Shown: piece by piece, positions 18,358 through 63,298 of the stretch
Layout of the letters: each line of letters begins with the position of its first letter
Position numbering within the stretch: position 1 is the first letter of the stretch
Source of the DNA: Pedobacter planticolens
GTDB lineage: Bacteria; Bacteroidota; Bacteroidia; Sphingobacteriales; Sphingobacteriaceae
Assembly (NCBI RefSeq): GCF_014172375.1
Contig: NZ_WNXD01000002.1
Location: forward strand, 1,116,001 to 1,180,000
Length of the DNA: 64,000 nt
Direction of reading: 5' to 3'
Program-made: the position numbers and the translations under genes
Notes under the pieces: model-generated
What the model was told of the DNA's origin: nothing
What the model saw: the letters and a program-made list of their open reading frames with translations, nothing else
Databases searched by the model: none

Positions 18358-18584
18358 ATGATAATCGCTATTTCATGTCAAAATCATACAGTTATAAACC
18401 AGCGAGAACTTGAAATCTTGCGCCTAGTTTGCATGGGCTATAACAGTAGGTAAATTGCTGATCAGCTTTTATTAGCGAACTTACTGTGCAAACTCATCGT
18501 CGCAACAAGGTAAAGAAATTGGGTTTAAGAAACTCACACTAATTGATAGTTTGAGCATTTAAAGAAAGAATGCTTTCTGTATAA
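18358..18584 (+). pseudogene. decayed copy of the small LuxR-type HTH gene
   Basis: The DNA aligns along its whole length with the intact gene at 19180-19404. Reading from ATG 18358, the HTH part (QRELEILRLVCMGYNSR) is stopped by TAA where the intact copy has CAA (Gln). One T is missing in the run of the DQLFI region, a -1 frameshift. Two more codons became stops: CAA to TAA in NSHQLIV and TGG to TGA in VWAF. The end KERMLSV is still legible. A terminator follows. All three nonsense changes are transitions consistent with C-to-T. Confidence 0.9.
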
Positions 18585-18585
18585 T

Positions 18586-18615
18586 AAAAAGGCCTCCAAA
18601 TTTGGAGGCCTTTTT
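18586..18615. terminator. terminator after the LuxR-HTH pseudogene
   Basis: Perfect palindrome GGCCTCCAAATTTGGAGGCC (18591-18610) flanked by AAAAA and TTTTT, so it can work in both directions. It presumably ends the 16873 operon transcript. Confidence 0.9.
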
Positions 18616-18703
18616 ATTTCTAGAAGCTTTGATAAACTTTCAAAGTTTTTTTAAAATTTAGAATTATCATCTTCTTCAATTCGACTATAGCATACTACAA
18701 GAA

Positions 18704-19993: not shown

Positions 19994-20002
19994 TTAATTA
20001 AC

Positions 20003-20032
20003 AAAAAAGCCTCCAAATGCGGAGGCTTTTTT
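20003..20032. terminator. bidirectional terminator between convergent genes
   Basis: Stem AAAAAAGCCTCC/GGAGGCTTTTTT with loop AAATGC. Serves the small secreted protein gene on the plus strand and the M28 peptidase gene on the minus strand. Confidence 0.92.
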
Positions 20033-20051
20033 GTTTAAGATTAGAAAATTC

Positions 20052-21846: not shown

Positions 21847-23205
21847 ATGATTAAAATGAAATACTTAGGTCTTTTATTAGCTGTTATTCTTTTCTCTGAA
21901 AATTCATTTGCACAAAAGACAATAACTAGAGATGCTAATATTAGCACGATGGTTAATGAAGTTGCTTCCACTAATTTAGAGCAAACGATTAAAAAACTGG
22001 TTTCTTTTCAAACCCGACACACGCTAAGCGATACCTTAAGTAAAACAACAGGTATTGGGGCTGCTAGAACATGGATTAAAAGTGAATTTGAAAAATATGG
22101 TGCAGCTGGTGGTGGCAGGCTTCAAGTTTCTTATGATACTTTTACGCAAGCTGCTGATGGAAGAAGAATTACTGCACCCGTTGTACTTAAAAATGTACTA
22201 GCAGTTTTACCTGGAACAGATCCGAATGATAAAAGAATGCTATTAGTTTCTGGGCATTATGATTCGAGAGTGACAGATGTAATGAATATCAAAGATTTCG
22301 CTCCTGGTGCAAATGATGATGCATCCGGCGTAGCCGCTATGATGGAAATGTGCAGAGTAATGAGCAAGCAGAAATTTAACTGTACGTTAGTTTTTGTAGC
22401 CATGGTTGGTGAAGAACAGGGTTTATATGGTGCAACAAATTTGGCTAAACGAGCAAAGGAAGAAGGTTGGAATGTACATTTATTAATGAATAATGATATT
22501 GTTGGAAACTCTTACGGAATGGAAACCGATTTAAAAGACAATAAAAGTGTACGTGTTTTTAGTGAAGGAGTTTCTGCTTTAGAAACACCAGCTCAAGCTG
22601 CGGCTAGACAATCGGCTGGAACTGAAAATGATGGGAAAGCTCGTCAGGCGGCGAGATATATTAAAGAAGTTGCAGAGCGATATGTTGACCAATTGGAAGT
22701 AAAACTGATTTACAGAAGAGATCGTTATTTGCGTGGCGGAGATCACACTCCATTTTCTCAACAAGGTTTTGCCGCAGTGCGGATAACAGAAATGAACGAA
22801 GATTTTAATCGCCAACACCAGGATGTGAGAACAGAAAATGGTTTTAAATATGGCGATTTACCCGAATATGTAGATTATAACTATCTGCAAAAAGTAACAC
22901 GAATGAATTTATCAGTGATGGCAAATTTAGGTTTGTCAACTCAAGAACCTGAAAATGTTGTGGTCCTTACTTCAGGATTAACGAATAAAACTTCCCTAAA
23001 ATGGGATGCACCAAAAGGAAAATCTCCGGCAGGTTATTATGTGTTGATGCGTGAAACTACAAGTCCTTTTTGGGAACAGAAATTCTTTGTAAAAGAGAAT
23101 GCAGCAACGTTATCCTATTCAAAGGACAACTATTATTTCGGTGTACAATCCGTTGATGAAAACGGACATGAGAGTTTGGTAGTTATTCCAAAAGCTGGGC
23201 GATAA
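21847..23205 (+). CDS. secreted M28-family metallopeptidase with C-terminal fibronectin-III-like domain
   Basis: 452 residues from ATG 21847 (MIKMKYLGLL); the longer frame adds residues before the signal peptide. Zinc/catalytic motifs: SGHYDSRV, GANDDASGVA, GEEQGLYGA, LLMNNDIVGN and GGDHTPFSQQGF. The last ~90 residues (EPENVVVLTSGLTNKTSL to VDENGHESL) form a fibronectin-III-like module. It diverges from the M28 gene at 20052, but the two catalytic domains are only distantly alike, so this is not a simple tandem duplicate. An R1 hairpin follows the stop. Confidence 0.92.
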   Translation: MIKMKYLGLLLAVILFSENSFAQKTITRDANISTMVNEVASTNLEQTIKKLVSFQTRHTLSDTLSKTTGIGAARTWIKSEFEKYGAAGGGRLQVSYDTFTQAADGRRITAPVVLKNVLAVLPGTDPNDKRMLLVSGHYDSRVTDVMNIKDFAPGANDDASGVAAMMEMCRVMSKQKFNCTLVFVAMVGEEQGLYGATNLAKRAKEEGWNVHLLMNNDIVGNSYGMETDLKDNKSVRVFSEGVSALETPAQAAARQSAGTENDGKARQAARYIKEVAERYVDQLEVKLIYRRDRYLRGGDHTPFSQQGFAAVRITEMNEDFNRQHQDVRTENGFKYGDLPEYVDYNYLQKVTRMNLSVMANLGLSTQEPENVVVLTSGLTNKTSLKWDAPKGKSPAGYYVLMRETTSPFWEQKFFVKENAATLSYSKDNYYFGVQSVDENGHESLVVIPKAGR

Positions 23206-23215
23206 AATAAGTTTT

Positions 23216-23273
23216 ACCACATAGAAACATAGTTGGGTGCTGTTTAGCTAATTTTTCTATGTGCCTATGTGGT
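23216..23273. repeat. R1 hairpin repeat, empty copy
   Basis: Arms ACCACATAGAAACATAG (23216-23232) and CTATGTGCCTATGTGGT (23257-23273), 15/17 complementary, loop 24 nt. It fills the 85-bp space between two convergent genes. Same arms as the GxxExxY cassette at 56978-57428. Confidence 0.85.
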
Positions 23274-42283: not shown

Positions 42284-42343
42284 ACCACATAGGCACATAG
42301 TTCTTCATAAGTTTTAGCTATGTTTTTTATGTGTCTATGTGGT
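42284..42343. repeat. R1 hairpin repeat, empty copy
   Basis: ACCACATAGGCACATAG (42284-42300) and TTATGTGTCTATGTGGT (42327-42343), 15/17 complementary, loop 26 nt sharing TTTAGCTA with the loop of 23216-23273. It lies 10 bp after the stop of the SDR gene. Confidence 0.85.
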
Positions 42344-42353
42344 TAGGTTAACT

Positions 42354-43226
42354 TTAACTTCCTTTGGCGGATCTGGTCATTTGTTCTAGCATGTCCCACA
42401 TTTCTGATGGTATTGCTTCTAATCCATTCATTTGGCCGGCACCTTGTAGCCATTCGCCGCCATCTATTGTAATGATTTCGCCGTTGATGTAGCCTGCAAA
42501 ATCACTGATGAGGAATGCGGCTAAGTTGGCTAGTTCTTGGTTTTCGCCTACGCGTTTTAGGGGAACTCGGTTTTTGAAATCGAATTTTTCGGCTAAATCT
42601 CCTGGTAATAATCTATCCCATGCGCCTTTTGTTGGGAATGGGCCTGGTGCGATTGCGTTGGTTCGGATGCCATATTTACCCCATTCTACGGCTAGGGATC
42701 TGGTGAGTGCGAGTACGCCGCCTTTTGCGCAAGCGGATGGAACGACGTAGGCGGAACCGGTAAAGGCATAGGTGGTTACGATGTTTAGGACGCTTGCGGG
42801 TTGTTTTTCTTTGATCCAATGTTTGCCAAAGGCGAGGGTGCAGTTTACGGTTCCTTTTAAAACGATATCGATAATGCTGGAGAAGGCATTGGCTGATAAG
42901 CGTTCTGTTGGGGAGATGAAATTGCCTGCGGCATTGTTTAATAGTCCGTCTACTTTGCCAAACTTTTGGATGGTTGCTGAGAGTACGGCTTCTACTTGTT
43001 CATAGTCTCTTACATCGCATTGCACAGCTAAAACTTGTCCGCCTGTTTCTGCTGCCATTTCATTGGCGGTTTTTTGTAGTACTTCTAATTTGCGGCTGGT
43101 GATAACCAAATTGGCACCTAGTTTTAAGAAATAAGTTCCCATGGCTCGGCCTAAGCCTGTGCCGCCACCTGTTACTACTATGGTTTTACCTTTTAGGGCA
43201 TCGTCTTTTAACATTTCGTTGGTCAT
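42354..43226 (-). CDS. SDR oxidoreductase, 2,4-dienoyl-CoA reductase-like
   Basis: 290 residues with Rossmann motif VVTGGGTGLGRAMG and structural NNAAGNF. The usual YxxxK is replaced by VVPSACAKGGV (Ser at the Tyr position), and SLAVEWGKYGIRTNAIAPGP follows. This is the pattern of the DECR/PDCR branch, which reduces 2,4-dienoyl-CoA with NADPH during beta-oxidation of unsaturated fatty acids, rather than a dead SDR. The C-terminal tail ends in Lys-Gly-Ser. Next to an enoyl-CoA isomerase-like gene, which supports the pathway. Confidence 0.85.
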   Translation of the reverse strand: MTNEMLKDDALKGKTIVVTGGGTGLGRAMGTYFLKLGANLVITSRKLEVLQKTANEMAAETGGQVLAVQCDVRDYEQVEAVLSATIQKFGKVDGLLNNAAGNFISPTERLSANAFSSIIDIVLKGTVNCTLAFGKHWIKEKQPASVLNIVTTYAFTGSAYVVPSACAKGGVLALTRSLAVEWGKYGIRTNAIAPGPFPTKGAWDRLLPGDLAEKFDFKNRVPLKRVGENQELANLAAFLISDFAGYINGEIITIDGGEWLQGAGQMNGLEAIPSEMWDMLEQMTRSAKGS

Positions 43227-55049: not shown

Positions 55050-55790
55050 ATGCGCTTACTGCTGGTTTTCTTTATCGTTTTTATATGGACTAGTAATGCC
55101 CACGCGACTGCTGTGCAAAAACCAGTTGCTAAACCTGCCGTAGTTAAAAAAGGTATTATTTTAAAATCAGATAGCAGTAAAGTAGATCTACGAAAATTTG
55201 ATGAAACGGCAGTTAAAAAATATAGTGTACAAAAAGACTTTATTTATGATGATGTTGCACCACAAAGTTTAAGCTTATGGGATCGTTTTTGGAGATGGAT
55301 TTGGCGTTTAATCAATAATATTTTTAGTGGAGGAATTACCGGCAGCATTATAAAATATGTTTTAATCGCTGTTGTAATTGCCATAGTTGTATTTGCGGTT
55401 ATTAAATTAATTGGTTTAGATTATAAATTCCTAACGGGAAAATCTAAAGCAGTAGCCATACCATTTGAGGAAAGTTTAGAAAACATTCATGAAATTGATT
55501 TCGATGAACAAATTGATTTCGCTTTGCAAAACGGAAATTATCGCCTCGCGGTACGACTGTTATATTTAAAAACTTTAAAGCATTTAAGCGATAAACAGCT
55601 CATTAACTGGCAGCCAGAAAAAACCAATCAGGCTTATGTTTTAGAGCTCGAAAATGAAAACTACAAACAAGAATTTAATACGCTAACTAACCAATTCGAA
55701 TACATTTGGTACGGCGAGTTTTTTATAGATAAAAGTAGTTTCGAACCAATTAATCAATCCTTTTTACAGTTTAATCAAAAAACGATATGA
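55050..55790 (+). CDS. DUF4129 domain-containing membrane protein
   Basis: 246 residues with a signal-like N-terminus (MRLLLVFFIVFIWTSNAHA) and one membrane helix (about 108-132, YVLIAVVIAIVVFAVIKLI). The DUF4129 domain at the C-terminus (about 160-240) contains ALQNGNYRLAVRLLYLKTLKHL and YIWYGEFFIDKSSFEPI. ATG directly follows the previous stop; overlaps the next gene by 4 bp. DUF4129 proteins are regular members of the MoxR/DUF58 cluster. Molecular role not established. Confidence 0.88.
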   Translation: MRLLLVFFIVFIWTSNAHATAVQKPVAKPAVVKKGIILKSDSSKVDLRKFDETAVKKYSVQKDFIYDDVAPQSLSLWDRFWRWIWRLINNIFSGGITGSIIKYVLIAVVIAIVVFAVIKLIGLDYKFLTGKSKAVAIPFEESLENIHEIDFDEQIDFALQNGNYRLAVRLLYLKTLKHLSDKQLINWQPEKTNQAYVLELENENYKQEFNTLTNQFEYIWYGEFFIDKSSFEPINQSFLQFNQKTI

Positions 55791-56971
55791 ACAGCGGATT
55801 GAGAAGATATTTAATAATTGGTAGCATTTTAATAGTGGGTTATTTGGTTGCACAATATTTTAAACCAAAGCCAACTAATTGGGCGCCCACTTATCTTTCT
55901 GAAGATAAAATTCCATTTGGCACTTACATTTTACGCCAAAGAATTAATGATATTTTTCCAAATACAAAAATAAAAACTGTTCAATCTGCTGTTTATAATA
56001 ACTTAAGAGAGCAACCAAAAGGTCAATCTAATTATTTTATTATTGCTTCAAACTTAAGTGTAGATAAACTCGATTACCGAGAAATGGTAAAATATATGCA
56101 AAGCGGAAACAATATTTTTATTGCTGCTTTTCAAATTAAAGGTGGTTTACTAGATAAGTTAAAACTACAAATTGCATCCGATTTCAACTTCCAGAATAAA
56201 CGAAAATATCCTATCAACTTTGTTAATCCATCCTTAAAAAGAGACCTTGATTATTATTTTGATAAAGGAATAAGCGAGCAATATTTTTTAAATGTAGATA
56301 CCGCAAGAGCTATTGTTTTAGGGAAGAAGGAAGATAAGTTTTCCAATTTTATTCAATACAAATTTGGTAAAGGCTCTTTGTTTATCTTACCAAATCCACA
56401 ATTGTTAACCAATTATAGTCTGCTCAAAGAGGATGGTTTGGATTATGCATCTAAAGTGCTTTCTTATTTGCCAAAAGCAGAAACCTTAATTTGGAACGAA
56501 CATTTTACCCGGCCTGATGCGCAAGATCATTCAGTTTTAAGAGTGTTTTTTAAATACGATGAATTACGATGGGCCTATTACATTGCGCTATTTAGTTTAG
56601 TGGCGTTCATTTTATTTGAAATTAAACGAAGACAACGGATAATTCCAGTAATAGAAAGATTAAAAAATACATCTGTAGAATTTGCCGAAGTAGTAGGGCG
56701 AGTGTATTACCAGCAGCGCAATAATAGAGATATTGCAGAGAAAAAAGTAAGCTATTTATTAGAGTATATCCGGAATAAATACCGCCTAAAAACTTTGGAT
56801 TTAAACCAAGAATTTAAAGAATCGCTGATTAAAATTTCTGGTGCAAATGCAGATATAATCGATGAGCTTTTAGAAGAAATAACATACCTTAAAGCGGGGC
56901 AAATGGTGAAAGACCAACAGCTAATCCGTCTAAATAAATTAATTGAACAATTTTATAAACAAGACCAATAA
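55787..56971 (+). CDS. DUF4350 domain-containing protein
   Basis: 394 residues. An N-terminal helix anchors it (RYLIIGSILIVGYLVAQYF). A flavodoxin/GATase-like DUF4350 domain occupies about 35-230 (SEDKIPFGTYILRQRINDIFP). A second helix lies near 262-282 (YYIALFSLVAFILFEI), followed by a cytosolic helical tail (RLKNTSVEFAEVVGRVYYQQRNNRD). Cotranscribed with DUF4129. It ends just 6 bp before the left arm of the GxxExxY cassette that splits it from the MoxR gene. Confidence 0.87.
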   Translation: MNSGLRRYLIIGSILIVGYLVAQYFKPKPTNWAPTYLSEDKIPFGTYILRQRINDIFPNTKIKTVQSAVYNNLREQPKGQSNYFIIASNLSVDKLDYREMVKYMQSGNNIFIAAFQIKGGLLDKLKLQIASDFNFQNKRKYPINFVNPSLKRDLDYYFDKGISEQYFLNVDTARAIVLGKKEDKFSNFIQYKFGKGSLFILPNPQLLTNYSLLKEDGLDYASKVLSYLPKAETLIWNEHFTRPDAQDHSVLRVFFKYDELRWAYYIALFSLVAFILFEIKRRQRIIPVIERLKNTSVEFAEVVGRVYYQQRNNRDIAEKKVSYLLEYIRNKYRLKTLDLNQEFKESLIKISGANADIIDELLEEITYLKAGQMVKDQQLIRLNKLIEQFYKQDQ

Positions 56972-56977
56972 TATACA

Positions 56978-57428
56978 ACCACATAGACACATAGTTATGT
57001 TGACAAAAAAGTACTTAGACGATTTGACTTATGAGATTATAGGAAGTGCTATTGAAGTTCACAAAGTATTGGGACGAGGATTGTTAGAAAGCGTATATCA
57101 TAGGTGTTTAATAGAAGAACTATTATATAGAAAAATAAATTTTCTTACTGAAATGAAAGTTCCTATAGTTTATAGAAGCAAAGTATTGGATATAGATTTG
57201 AGATGTGATTTATTTGTTGAACAATGTGTAGTGGTAGAATTAAAATCAGTGAATGAAATGACAAAAGTGTTTGATGCTCAGCTTCTGACCTATATGAAAC
57301 TATTACGATGCCCTAAGGGCATCCTTATTAACTTTAATAGCTCAAATATTTTTAAAGAAGGTCAAAAGACTTTTGTAAATGAATATTTTAGTACGCTACC
57401 AGATAACTAAACTATGTGCCTATGTGGT
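56978..57428 (+). mobile_element. candidate R1 cassette: GxxExxY gene framed by a 17-bp inverted repeat
   Basis: Left arm ACCACATAGACACATAG (56978-56994) and right arm CTATGTGCCTATGTGGT (57412-57428) are complementary at 16 of 17 positions. The gene's ATG lies 2 bp after the left arm and its stop 1 bp before the right arm, so the cassette contains the gene and nothing else. The same arms occur as empty hairpins at 23216-23273 and 42284-42343. The cassette interrupts the otherwise tight DUF4350-MoxR spacing. Mobility is inferred; no target-site duplication is obvious. Confidence 0.6.
56997..57410 (+). CDS. GxxExxY protein (PDDEXK-like)
   Basis: 137 residues from ATG 56997 (MLTKKYLDDLTYEIIGSAIEVHK). 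The naming motif is GRGLLESVYHRCL (GxxExxY), then RKINFLTEMKVPIVYRS, IDLRCDLFVEQCVVVELKSVNEM (the D...ExK core of a PDDEXK-type nuclease fold) and LLTYMKLLRCPKGILINFN. Family members are found scattered and often in several copies in Bacteroidota; biochemical function is not established. The longer frame would run back through the left repeat arm into the DUF4350 gene. See the cassette entry for its unusual framing. Confidence 0.92.
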   Translation: MLTKKYLDDLTYEIIGSAIEVHKVLGRGLLESVYHRCLIEELLYRKINFLTEMKVPIVYRSKVLDIDLRCDLFVEQCVVVELKSVNEMTKVFDAQLLTYMKLLRCPKGILINFNSSNIFKEGQKTFVNEYFSTLPDN

Positions 57429-57466: not shown

Positions 57467-58444
57467 ATGGAACAGGAAATGTTTAATCAACGAACCGATT
57501 TAAGCCAATTAAGTGCCGCAGTAGATCAAATTAGGCAATCTTTAAGCCATGTAATTATTGGTCAAAAAGACACTATAGATCTTTTAATTGCAGGTTTATT
57601 GGCAGATGGACATCTTTTATTAGAGGGTGTGCCTGGTGTAGCGAAAACCTTAAGCGCTAAATTAGTAGCAAAATGTATTTCAGCAACATTTTCTAGAATA
57701 CAATTCACGCCAGATTTAATGCCATCTGATGTATTAGGAACAGCAGTATTTAGCCCTAAAACAGCAGAATTTCAATTTAGGCAAGGACCTATTTTTGGCA
57801 ATATCATTTTGGTAGATGAAATTAATCGTGCGCCCGCAAAAACGCAATCTGCGTTATTTGAAGCGATGGAAGAACGCCAAATTACAGTGGACGGAAACAC
57901 CTACAAATTAGAAGAACCTTTTATGGTTTTGGCAACTCAAAACCCAATAGAACAAGAAGGAACGTATCGTTTGCCAGAAGCACAATTGGATCGTTTCCTA
58001 TTTAAAATCGAAGTTAAATATCCTTCGTTAGAAGAAGAAATAGAAATATTAACGAGCCAACATCAACAACGAACAGAAGACCAATTAAAAGAAATTAAAC
58101 CTGTTTTATCGGTGGAGCAAATTAAAGCGTTAAGAGCAACTATCAAATCATTGTTTGTTGAACCTAAATTGCTGGCGTACGTTGCGCAAATTACGCATGA
58201 AACCCGACATAATAAATCGTTGTATTTAGGAGCATCGCCAAGGGCATCTTTGGCTATGGTAAATGGGGCAAAAGCTATTGCTGCAATGGCTGGTCGTGAT
58301 TTTGTAACACCAGATGATATTGTAAAAGTAGCTGCGCCTGTGTTAGCGCATCGCATTATGCTAAGTCCAGAAAAGGAAATGGAAGGGTTAACTACGGCAG
58401 ATGTGGTTGCACAAATTATTAAAAAAATAGAAGTGCCGAGATAG
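57467..58444 (+). CDS. MoxR-family AAA+ ATPase
   Basis: 325 residues. Walker A EGVPGVAKTLSAK, Walker B IILVDEINRAPAKTQSALFEAMEE, sensor-1 VLATQNPIEQEGTYRLPEAQLDRFL and sensor-2 GASPRASLAM, all canonical. MoxR ATPases act as chaperones for von Willebrand factor A/DUF58 partners in the cytosol. The DUF58 gene starts 3 bp downstream. Upstream, the GxxExxY cassette and ~40 bp separate it from DUF4350. Confidence 0.95.
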   Translation: MEQEMFNQRTDLSQLSAAVDQIRQSLSHVIIGQKDTIDLLIAGLLADGHLLLEGVPGVAKTLSAKLVAKCISATFSRIQFTPDLMPSDVLGTAVFSPKTAEFQFRQGPIFGNIILVDEINRAPAKTQSALFEAMEERQITVDGNTYKLEEPFMVLATQNPIEQEGTYRLPEAQLDRFLFKIEVKYPSLEEEIEILTSQHQQRTEDQLKEIKPVLSVEQIKALRATIKSLFVEPKLLAYVAQITHETRHNKSLYLGASPRASLAMVNGAKAIAAMAGRDFVTPDDIVKVAAPVLAHRIMLSPEKEMEGLTTADVVAQIIKKIEVPR

Positions 58445-62848: not shown

Positions 62849-63298
62849 GTAAATACAGAGATAAATAGGAGACTGCCACGCTGCGCTCGCAAAGACGACC
62901 GCTTTATACTGCTGCTTACCTAACGCGTTCGTCATTGCTGTAAAGGCACGAAGCAATCTTTCTTGCTTTCTCTTTTTCAGCTCGCCGCCGCTATGGCTCT
63001 AAACTTTTTCTTGATAAAAAGTTTAACAAAAATCAAGGCTTAGTATCATCTCTTGGATTAAGCTATCAAAACTTTTAAGGCAACAAGCAGCAGGTTCGAT
63101 GAAGGATCGAACTGGCTCATTGTTTTGGATTGTGGTTTTTGAAAGTTTGTGCTGAAGTTTGGATTGCTTTCTCCTTCGGAATGCTACAAGGCCGGTCCTC
63201 GTTCTTGGGGGTGGGTTGTGGTTTGGGAGCCTCACCCCTAACCCCTCTCCGAAGGAGAGGGGAATTCATGATGGAAATTAATAGTGTTTAACTGGCGG
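62849..63298. other. gene-free stretch with REP-like sequences
   Basis: Contains blocks such as CACGCTGCGCTCGCAAAGAC, CGTCATTGCTG and GCACGAAGCAATCT, and the perfect hairpin CCCCTCTCC-GAA-GGAGAGGGG (63242-63262). These resemble intergenic repeats common in Bacteroidota genomes. A 70-codon minus-strand frame at 63023-63235 has no protein-like features and is not called. Together with array A3 and element D2 this makes almost 900 bp without a gene. Confidence 0.6.
63242..63262. repeat. perfect 9-bp hairpin
   Basis: CCCCTCTCC and GGAGAGGGG with a GAA loop, preceded by CTCACCCCTAA. Very stable fold without a T run. Confidence 0.85.

Follow-up and report, generated by a model that had tools for sequence, protein, structure and literature searches.

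A GxxExxY nuclease gene between matching inverted arms in Pedobacter planticolens suggests an undescribed kind of repeat-spreading element

What joins a small nuclease gene to a repeat whose arms enclose it almost to the base pair, when the same arms also occur around short loops? The question is raised by a cassette in the window, the whole 64,000-nucleotide stretch of Pedobacter planticolens DNA analysed here. Its left arm, ACCACATAGACACATAG (56978..56994, + strand), was evaluated by shuffling and consists of two tandem CACATAG words, and its right arm, CTATGTGCCTATGTGGT (57412..57428, − strand; reverse complement ACCACATAGGCACATAG), is complementary to it at 16 of 17 positions. Between them lies a GxxExxY gene of the PD-(D/E)XK nuclease family (56997..57410, + strand, 137 aa), with 2 bp from the left arm to the ATG at 56997 and 1 bp from the TAA at 57410 to the right arm. 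None of 5000 flank shuffles equalled the arm score of this cassette, and the 17-mer with up to three mismatches has 7 matches in the window against 0.26 expected, a number reached by 0 of 100 shuffles. The initial annotation had described 17-bp arms enclosing a GxxExxY-like gene with gaps of 2 and 1 bp, and the coordinates, the shuffles and the TIGR04256 and PF13366 profiles all agree with it. It had also reported two further arm pairs around loops of 24-26 nt, and both are present: an empty hairpin at 23216..23273 (24-nt loop) in a convergent intergenic region where ORFs end at 23205 (+) and 23291 (−), and another at 42284..42343 (26-nt loop) beside a − strand ORF ending at 42354.

The cassette and its nuclease gene

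The cassette is situated between two protein genes, an upstream gene labelled DUF4350-like in the initial annotation (55787..56971, + strand) and a downstream gene labelled from its sequence as a MoxR-type AAA ATPase (57467..58444, + strand), and the left border of the insertion is the stop codon of the former. The PDDEXK gene is the sole ORF between the arms, and no transposase is found in the cassette. Neither the arms nor the hairpins of the window contain a GT[AG]G foot; the arms start with ACC after A/T-rich DNA.

The window protein scores 130.6 bits against TIGR04256 (cut-off 35) and 125.4 bits against PF13366 (cut-off 22) in profile searches. Its PD-(D/E)XK residues are intact and the G-x-x-E-x-x-Y motif is present; in an alignment of 58 relatives, G28, E31, Y34, D71, E81, K83, Q95 and Y99 are invariant. 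The AlphaFold model (pLDDT 97) has a PD-(D/E)XK fold with 4ic1 as the top structural match (Z 9.4), and the lower matches, Wolbachia CinB, HsdR, Cas4 and Hjc, indicate the superfamily only; those below Z 8 (the Holliday-junction resolvase Hjc, XisH, the RecB family) were excluded as functional evidence. An assignment to Cas4 or the Cas-associated nucleases was rejected, the PF01930 score of 16.4 bits being below the gathering cut-off of 22.7. A sequence search of the PDB with the window protein gave a best E of 0.39 only, and a scan of viral contigs returned no relative. The GxxExxY family is widespread and has no known function, its role being described nowhere in the open-access literature searched, and the cognate word repeats set out below supply a first testable function.

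Comparison of relatives dates the insertion. The full cassette is found at the DUF4350-moxR junction in genomes G000, G019 and G123, whereas in G091 the two arms remain but all that is left of the gene is its beginning and its end, an internally deleted cassette, and G101 has hairpins. An empty junction, which the initial annotation had suggested seeking in close relatives, is present in G007, G027, G028 and G057, where a clean ACCAATA(A/G)ATATGG is read and moxR starts 2 bp after the upstream stop codon. Between G000 and G019, dS is about 2 for the GxxExxY gene and 1.5-3.1 for the flanking genes, and dN/dS is 0.04 for the GxxExxY gene, which is under purifying selection. The insertion in the window is old and has been inherited with its site, so the gene itself shows no sign of recent transposition. 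In the moxR tree, empty sites lie beside occupied ones (G007 next to G000, G028 next to G091), a patchiness consistent with several precise losses or with several insertions at this one site, each of which would require an active process; exchange of the locus between strains is a further possibility. No clean target-site duplication was recovered from the comparison of occupied and empty moxR sites, whose spacers are too diverged.

Arms and arm words beyond the window

The host genome (4.06 Mb) carries four GxxExxY genes. Another of them, L032, has clear inverted arms of a different sequence, TTAACCATTAAGGAATTAAGA / TCTTAATGCCTTAATGTTAAA, and the remaining two have weaker arms. Because the arms differ from gene to gene, the architecture rather than one string was tested, by taking the best inverted match between the 150 bp upstream and the 150 bp downstream of each gene, with neighbouring ORFs and mispaired flanks as controls and a Smith-Waterman score of at least 24 as the definition of matched arms. 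The median flank score was 26 for 73 Pedobacter GxxExxY genes (18 for mispaired flanks), 27 for 30 genes across Bacteroidota (17 mispaired) and 26 for 76 genes from other phyla (16 mispaired), the last set drawn from Chlorobi, Ignavibacteria, Acidobacteria, Proteobacteria, Chloroflexota, Verrucomicrobia, Planctomycetota, Armatimonadetes and others. The degenerate scan for distant genes was built on the closer alignment, the broad alignment being too diverse. In the pooled set, matched arms were found at 59% of 207 GxxExxY loci, whereas only 1% of 153 neighbouring ORFs and 13-15% of the mispaired flanks reached the same score. The effective number of loci is below 207, orthologues being included among those from Pedobacter, and about 40% of GxxExxY genes have no detectable arms. 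The linkage between gene and arms is thus real. Abutment to within 1-2 bp, on the other hand, holds for the window gene and not as a general trait, as over 92 armed loci the median distance is 34 bp ahead of the start codon and 15 bp beyond the stop codon.

The arms are built of two to four tandem degenerate words of 7-8 nt with variable spacing (CACATAG, CACAAAG, CACAGAT, CACAGAG). Examples of such runs are ACCACATAG-ACACATAG, ACCACAAAG-ACACTAAG-AACACAAAG, ACCACAGAT-GAACACAGAT-AAACACAGAT and ACCACAGAG-GCACAGAG-ACACAGAG. Self-similarity within arms is maximal at lags 8 to 10 (0.35-0.37 vs 0.29 when shuffled), and the words are spaced by about one helical turn. The words sort with the protein tree of GxxExxY and drift with identity to the window protein, from CACATAG at 74-100% through CACAAAAG near 57% to CATATAAG and CATCTAAG near 53-56%. 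A Mantel test of protein distance against arm similarity gave a rho of −0.17, a strength matched by 1 of 1000 permutations, and 0.02 for control DNA outside the arms; the signal is weak when all pairs are taken together and greatest between closely related proteins. The words covary with protein clade and form several word families. Thus, of the expectation that GxxExxY genes elsewhere would carry the arms of the window, the shared architecture was borne out and the single ACCACATAG family was not.

The distribution among genomes was followed in 145 members of the genus, 84 with a GxxExxY gene above the cut-off and 61 without. The GxxExxY-positive genomes partly form clades, and the presence and absence figures that follow are raw counts that ignore this kinship. 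Exact ACCACATAG arms occur in 21 of the 84 positive and none of the 61 negative genomes, in line with the link first proposed; the corresponding numbers are 42/84 and 0/61 for CACAGAT arms and 57/84 and 1/61 for CACAAAG arms (58 genomes in total). Any of the three types is found in 71 of 84 positive genomes and in one negative genome, an incomplete draft. The arms are therefore restricted to GxxExxY genomes. In the host genome, 33 arms with at most one mismatch were counted, and none in the reversed control. Within the GxxExxY-positive genomes, kinship again being ignored, the copy number of CACATAG arms is 36.3 with a gene of the matching clade and 2.7 without, and the number of CACAGAT arms is 9.6 and 2.4, respectively. 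There are counter-cases: G011, G075 and G140 have many ACCACATAG arms, with a nearest GxxExxY protein only about 53-56% identical, and some CACAGAT arms occur in 29 of 67 GxxExxY genomes without a CACAGAT-clade gene.

Short hairpins and their relation to the cassette

Gene cassettes of the CACAGAT clade have an L-type left end, with AAAAAGGAT as second word, and an R-type right end, with ACACGGAT/ACACAGAT. Dispersed CACAGAT hairpins with a recognisable partner combine one L and one R in 9 of 9 cases; as the loci were picked by their R-type arm, L-L pairs would be invisible, whereas R-R pairs, detectable in this selection, number 0 of 9. In the host genome, five dispersed copies have in common about 105 nt between their arms that run collinear with the two ends of the gene. 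Plain local similarity between this family and the gene was non-significant, but when both gene ends were tested jointly the match was significant for four of the copies, being equalled by 0-2 of 2000 shuffles, as against 16 of 2000 for the fifth. Together, the internally deleted cassettes and the retained L and R ends support a derivation of the short hairpins from the gene cassette, as had been proposed from the window.

The five copies (L007, L011, L014, L023 and L025) have ACCACATAG arms within a larger unit with TIR-like ends, AGAAACTGTCTAAA, and may represent a MITE that took up a deleted GxxExxY cassette or developed from one. In G021, hairpins form tandem arrays with periods of 83 bp and 106 bp and three-word arms, ACCATATAAGGCATATAGAACATAG (L374, L375).

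A candidate mechanism, its rivals and related systems

The pairing of a nuclease with a matching repeat, recurring in many phyla, suggests a kind of repeat-spreading element that has so far gone undescribed. We consider it about two-thirds probable that the cassette is the gene-bearing form of such an element, a GxxExxY nuclease within its own cognate ends, with the hairpins as non-autonomous derivatives. In this scheme, GxxExxY would recognise, as a multimer, the words of its own arms and would nick or cut there, after which host repair or replication might copy or excise the element; internal deletion of the gene would then yield short hairpins, each keeping a left end and a right end, that could spread to intergenic sites. 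A more far-reaching proposal, for which we would stop a little short of even odds, is that the GxxExxY nuclease itself copies or excises the DNA between its tandem-word ends. GxxExxY would then stand for a class of repeat-mobilising enzymes that is new, is related to neither the HUH nor the DDE transposases and extends over some ten or more phyla, and S23, a four-helix-bundle protein with 7-periodic ends, would underlie a second, independent class.

The rival that survives best, unlikely as we judge it, is that another host enzyme, a RAYT/HUH transposase or an IS, moves the hairpins, and GxxExxY is cargo between the arms. It would accommodate the Y1_Tnp genes found in 78 of the 84 genomes with GxxExxY and in 4 of the 61 without, the arm family of the host genome that lies within a larger unit with TIR-like ends, and the REPIN-like inverted doublets and tandem arrays that the hairpins form. 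However, the arm words track the GxxExxY clades both within Pedobacter and across phyla, and G031 and G087 have arms and GxxExxY with no Y1 match. The true RAYT genes in these genomes are flanked by GC-rich palindromes of a kind of their own, such as GTCGGGATTTGCAATCCCGAC, and matched arms are lacking around the remaining Y1 genes, so that RAYT is disfavoured as the mover of the GxxExxY arms.

An element acting at the RNA level, similar to the intervening sequences of 23S rRNA, is rather less probable still. The arms would pair in the transcript and be processed, either by RNase III or by the protein itself, while the gene would travel in host mRNAs. The sense orientation of 45 of 49 multi-phylum loci between co-directional genes is what such an element would be expected to show (Pedobacter counts were left out, as many loci are orthologous and the antisense cases cluster in one clade), but ordinary genes are often sense-oriented as well. 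S23, the ORF of rRNA intervening sequences (PMC4990558), does have the same architecture in Pedobacter genomes. On the other side, empty hairpins are found between convergent genes too, and the left and right arms differ systematically in their L and R words and often mismatch; therefore, a perfect RNA stem is not the conserved feature. Least probable is a domesticated regulator or genome-maintenance nuclease with the arms as operators or substrates and hairpins spread passively through recombination and replication slippage, which would suit a gene under strong purifying selection that has been inherited vertically at the moxR site, as well as the tandem arrays of G021, but leaves the dispersed L-R hairpins, the empty and deleted cassettes and the matching arms around genes of distant phyla unexplained.

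Returning to the cassette as a gene-bearing element, its closest parallel is the REPIN-RAYT system, in which a usually single-copy, vertically inherited gene for a DNA-processing enzyme is flanked by repeats that are also dispersed intergenically as inverted doublets, each enzyme type having its own repeat type, and in which hairpins form tandem arrays (PMC8049555, PMC6006769). The GxxExxY system likewise has dispersed intergenic inverted doublets, clade-specific repeats and tandem hairpin arrays. Unlike the RAYTs, which are HUH tyrosine transposases, GxxExxY is a PD-(D/E)XK nuclease; its arms are without the GTAG/GTGG foot; an individual arm consists of tandem words in a row and not of a separate hairpin; and the gene lies between a single left end and a single right end. 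Despite its dispersed doublets, the cassette was therefore not assigned to the REPIN-RAYT systems, as it has neither an HUH Y1 enzyme nor the foot, and RAYT-REP systems with different repeats coexist in the GxxExxY genomes. As in MITEs with an autonomous IS, internally deleted copies retain both ends, but the cassette has no DDE transposase. Hence, the likeness to RAYT/REP or MITE systems put forward in the initial annotation extends to their logic and not to an HUH enzyme, a GTAG foot or a transposase, and by analogy a REPtron or REPIN in which a nuclease replaces the HUH transposase would be a fair description.

The intervening sequences of 23S rRNA also comprise a small ORF, S23, within inverted terminal repeats able to form a stem (PMC4990558). 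Whereas they lie in an rRNA helix, the GxxExxY cassette lies between protein genes and its ORF encodes a nuclease, and membership in this group was rejected. We regard the kind of element as probably new because neither its protein nor its repeat belongs to a known repeat-mobilising family; searches of the open-access literature with arm strings, family accessions and REP/Pedobacter terms, subscription literature being outside their scope, returned no description of the link between gene and repeat. If true, the link would provide a nuclease-based counterpart to REPIN-RAYT, and it may explain the scattered CACAGAG/CACAAAG/CACAGAT-type hairpins in many genomes.

Two other families share these hosts. 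S23 (PF05635) genes are present in 83 of the 84 genomes that have GxxExxY and in 7 of the 61 that lack it, and they are flanked by inverted arms of a parallel but different type, whose period is strictly 7 (lag-7 identity 0.67 vs 0.34). In Pedobacter, these S23/23S_rRNA_IVP four-helix-bundle genes lie outside rRNA (L136-L165), with arms of 7-nt words, e.g., GTTTTAAGTTATAAGTAATACGT, that vary by protein clade; this parallel case could explain an rRNA intervening-sequence protein outside rRNA genes. Pedobacter RAYT genes (L346-L365) have GC-rich REP palindromes, GTCGGGATTTGCAATCCCGAC and CTGGTCGTAGCGTCTCGCTACGAC, and some are within 2-3 kb of S23 genes. GxxExxY, S23 and Y1_Tnp, though unrelated, co-occur almost perfectly (145 genomes, kinship ignored). 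Since each of S23, RAYT and GxxExxY co-occurs with its own repeats, three unrelated families and three cognate kinds of repeat share hosts; shared host machinery or permissiveness is possible, and permissiveness or clade structure may thus explain part of the presence and absence pattern.

The window contains other inverted sequences. Perfect GC-cored palindromes at 18583-18618 and 20000-20035, AAAAAGGCCTCC.../...GGAGGCTTTTTT, are probably intrinsic terminators, and an inverted pair at 63160-63268, TGGATTGCTTTCTCCTTCGGA / TCCGAAGGAGAGGGGAATTCA, spaced by 67 nt, perhaps belongs to another repeat family.
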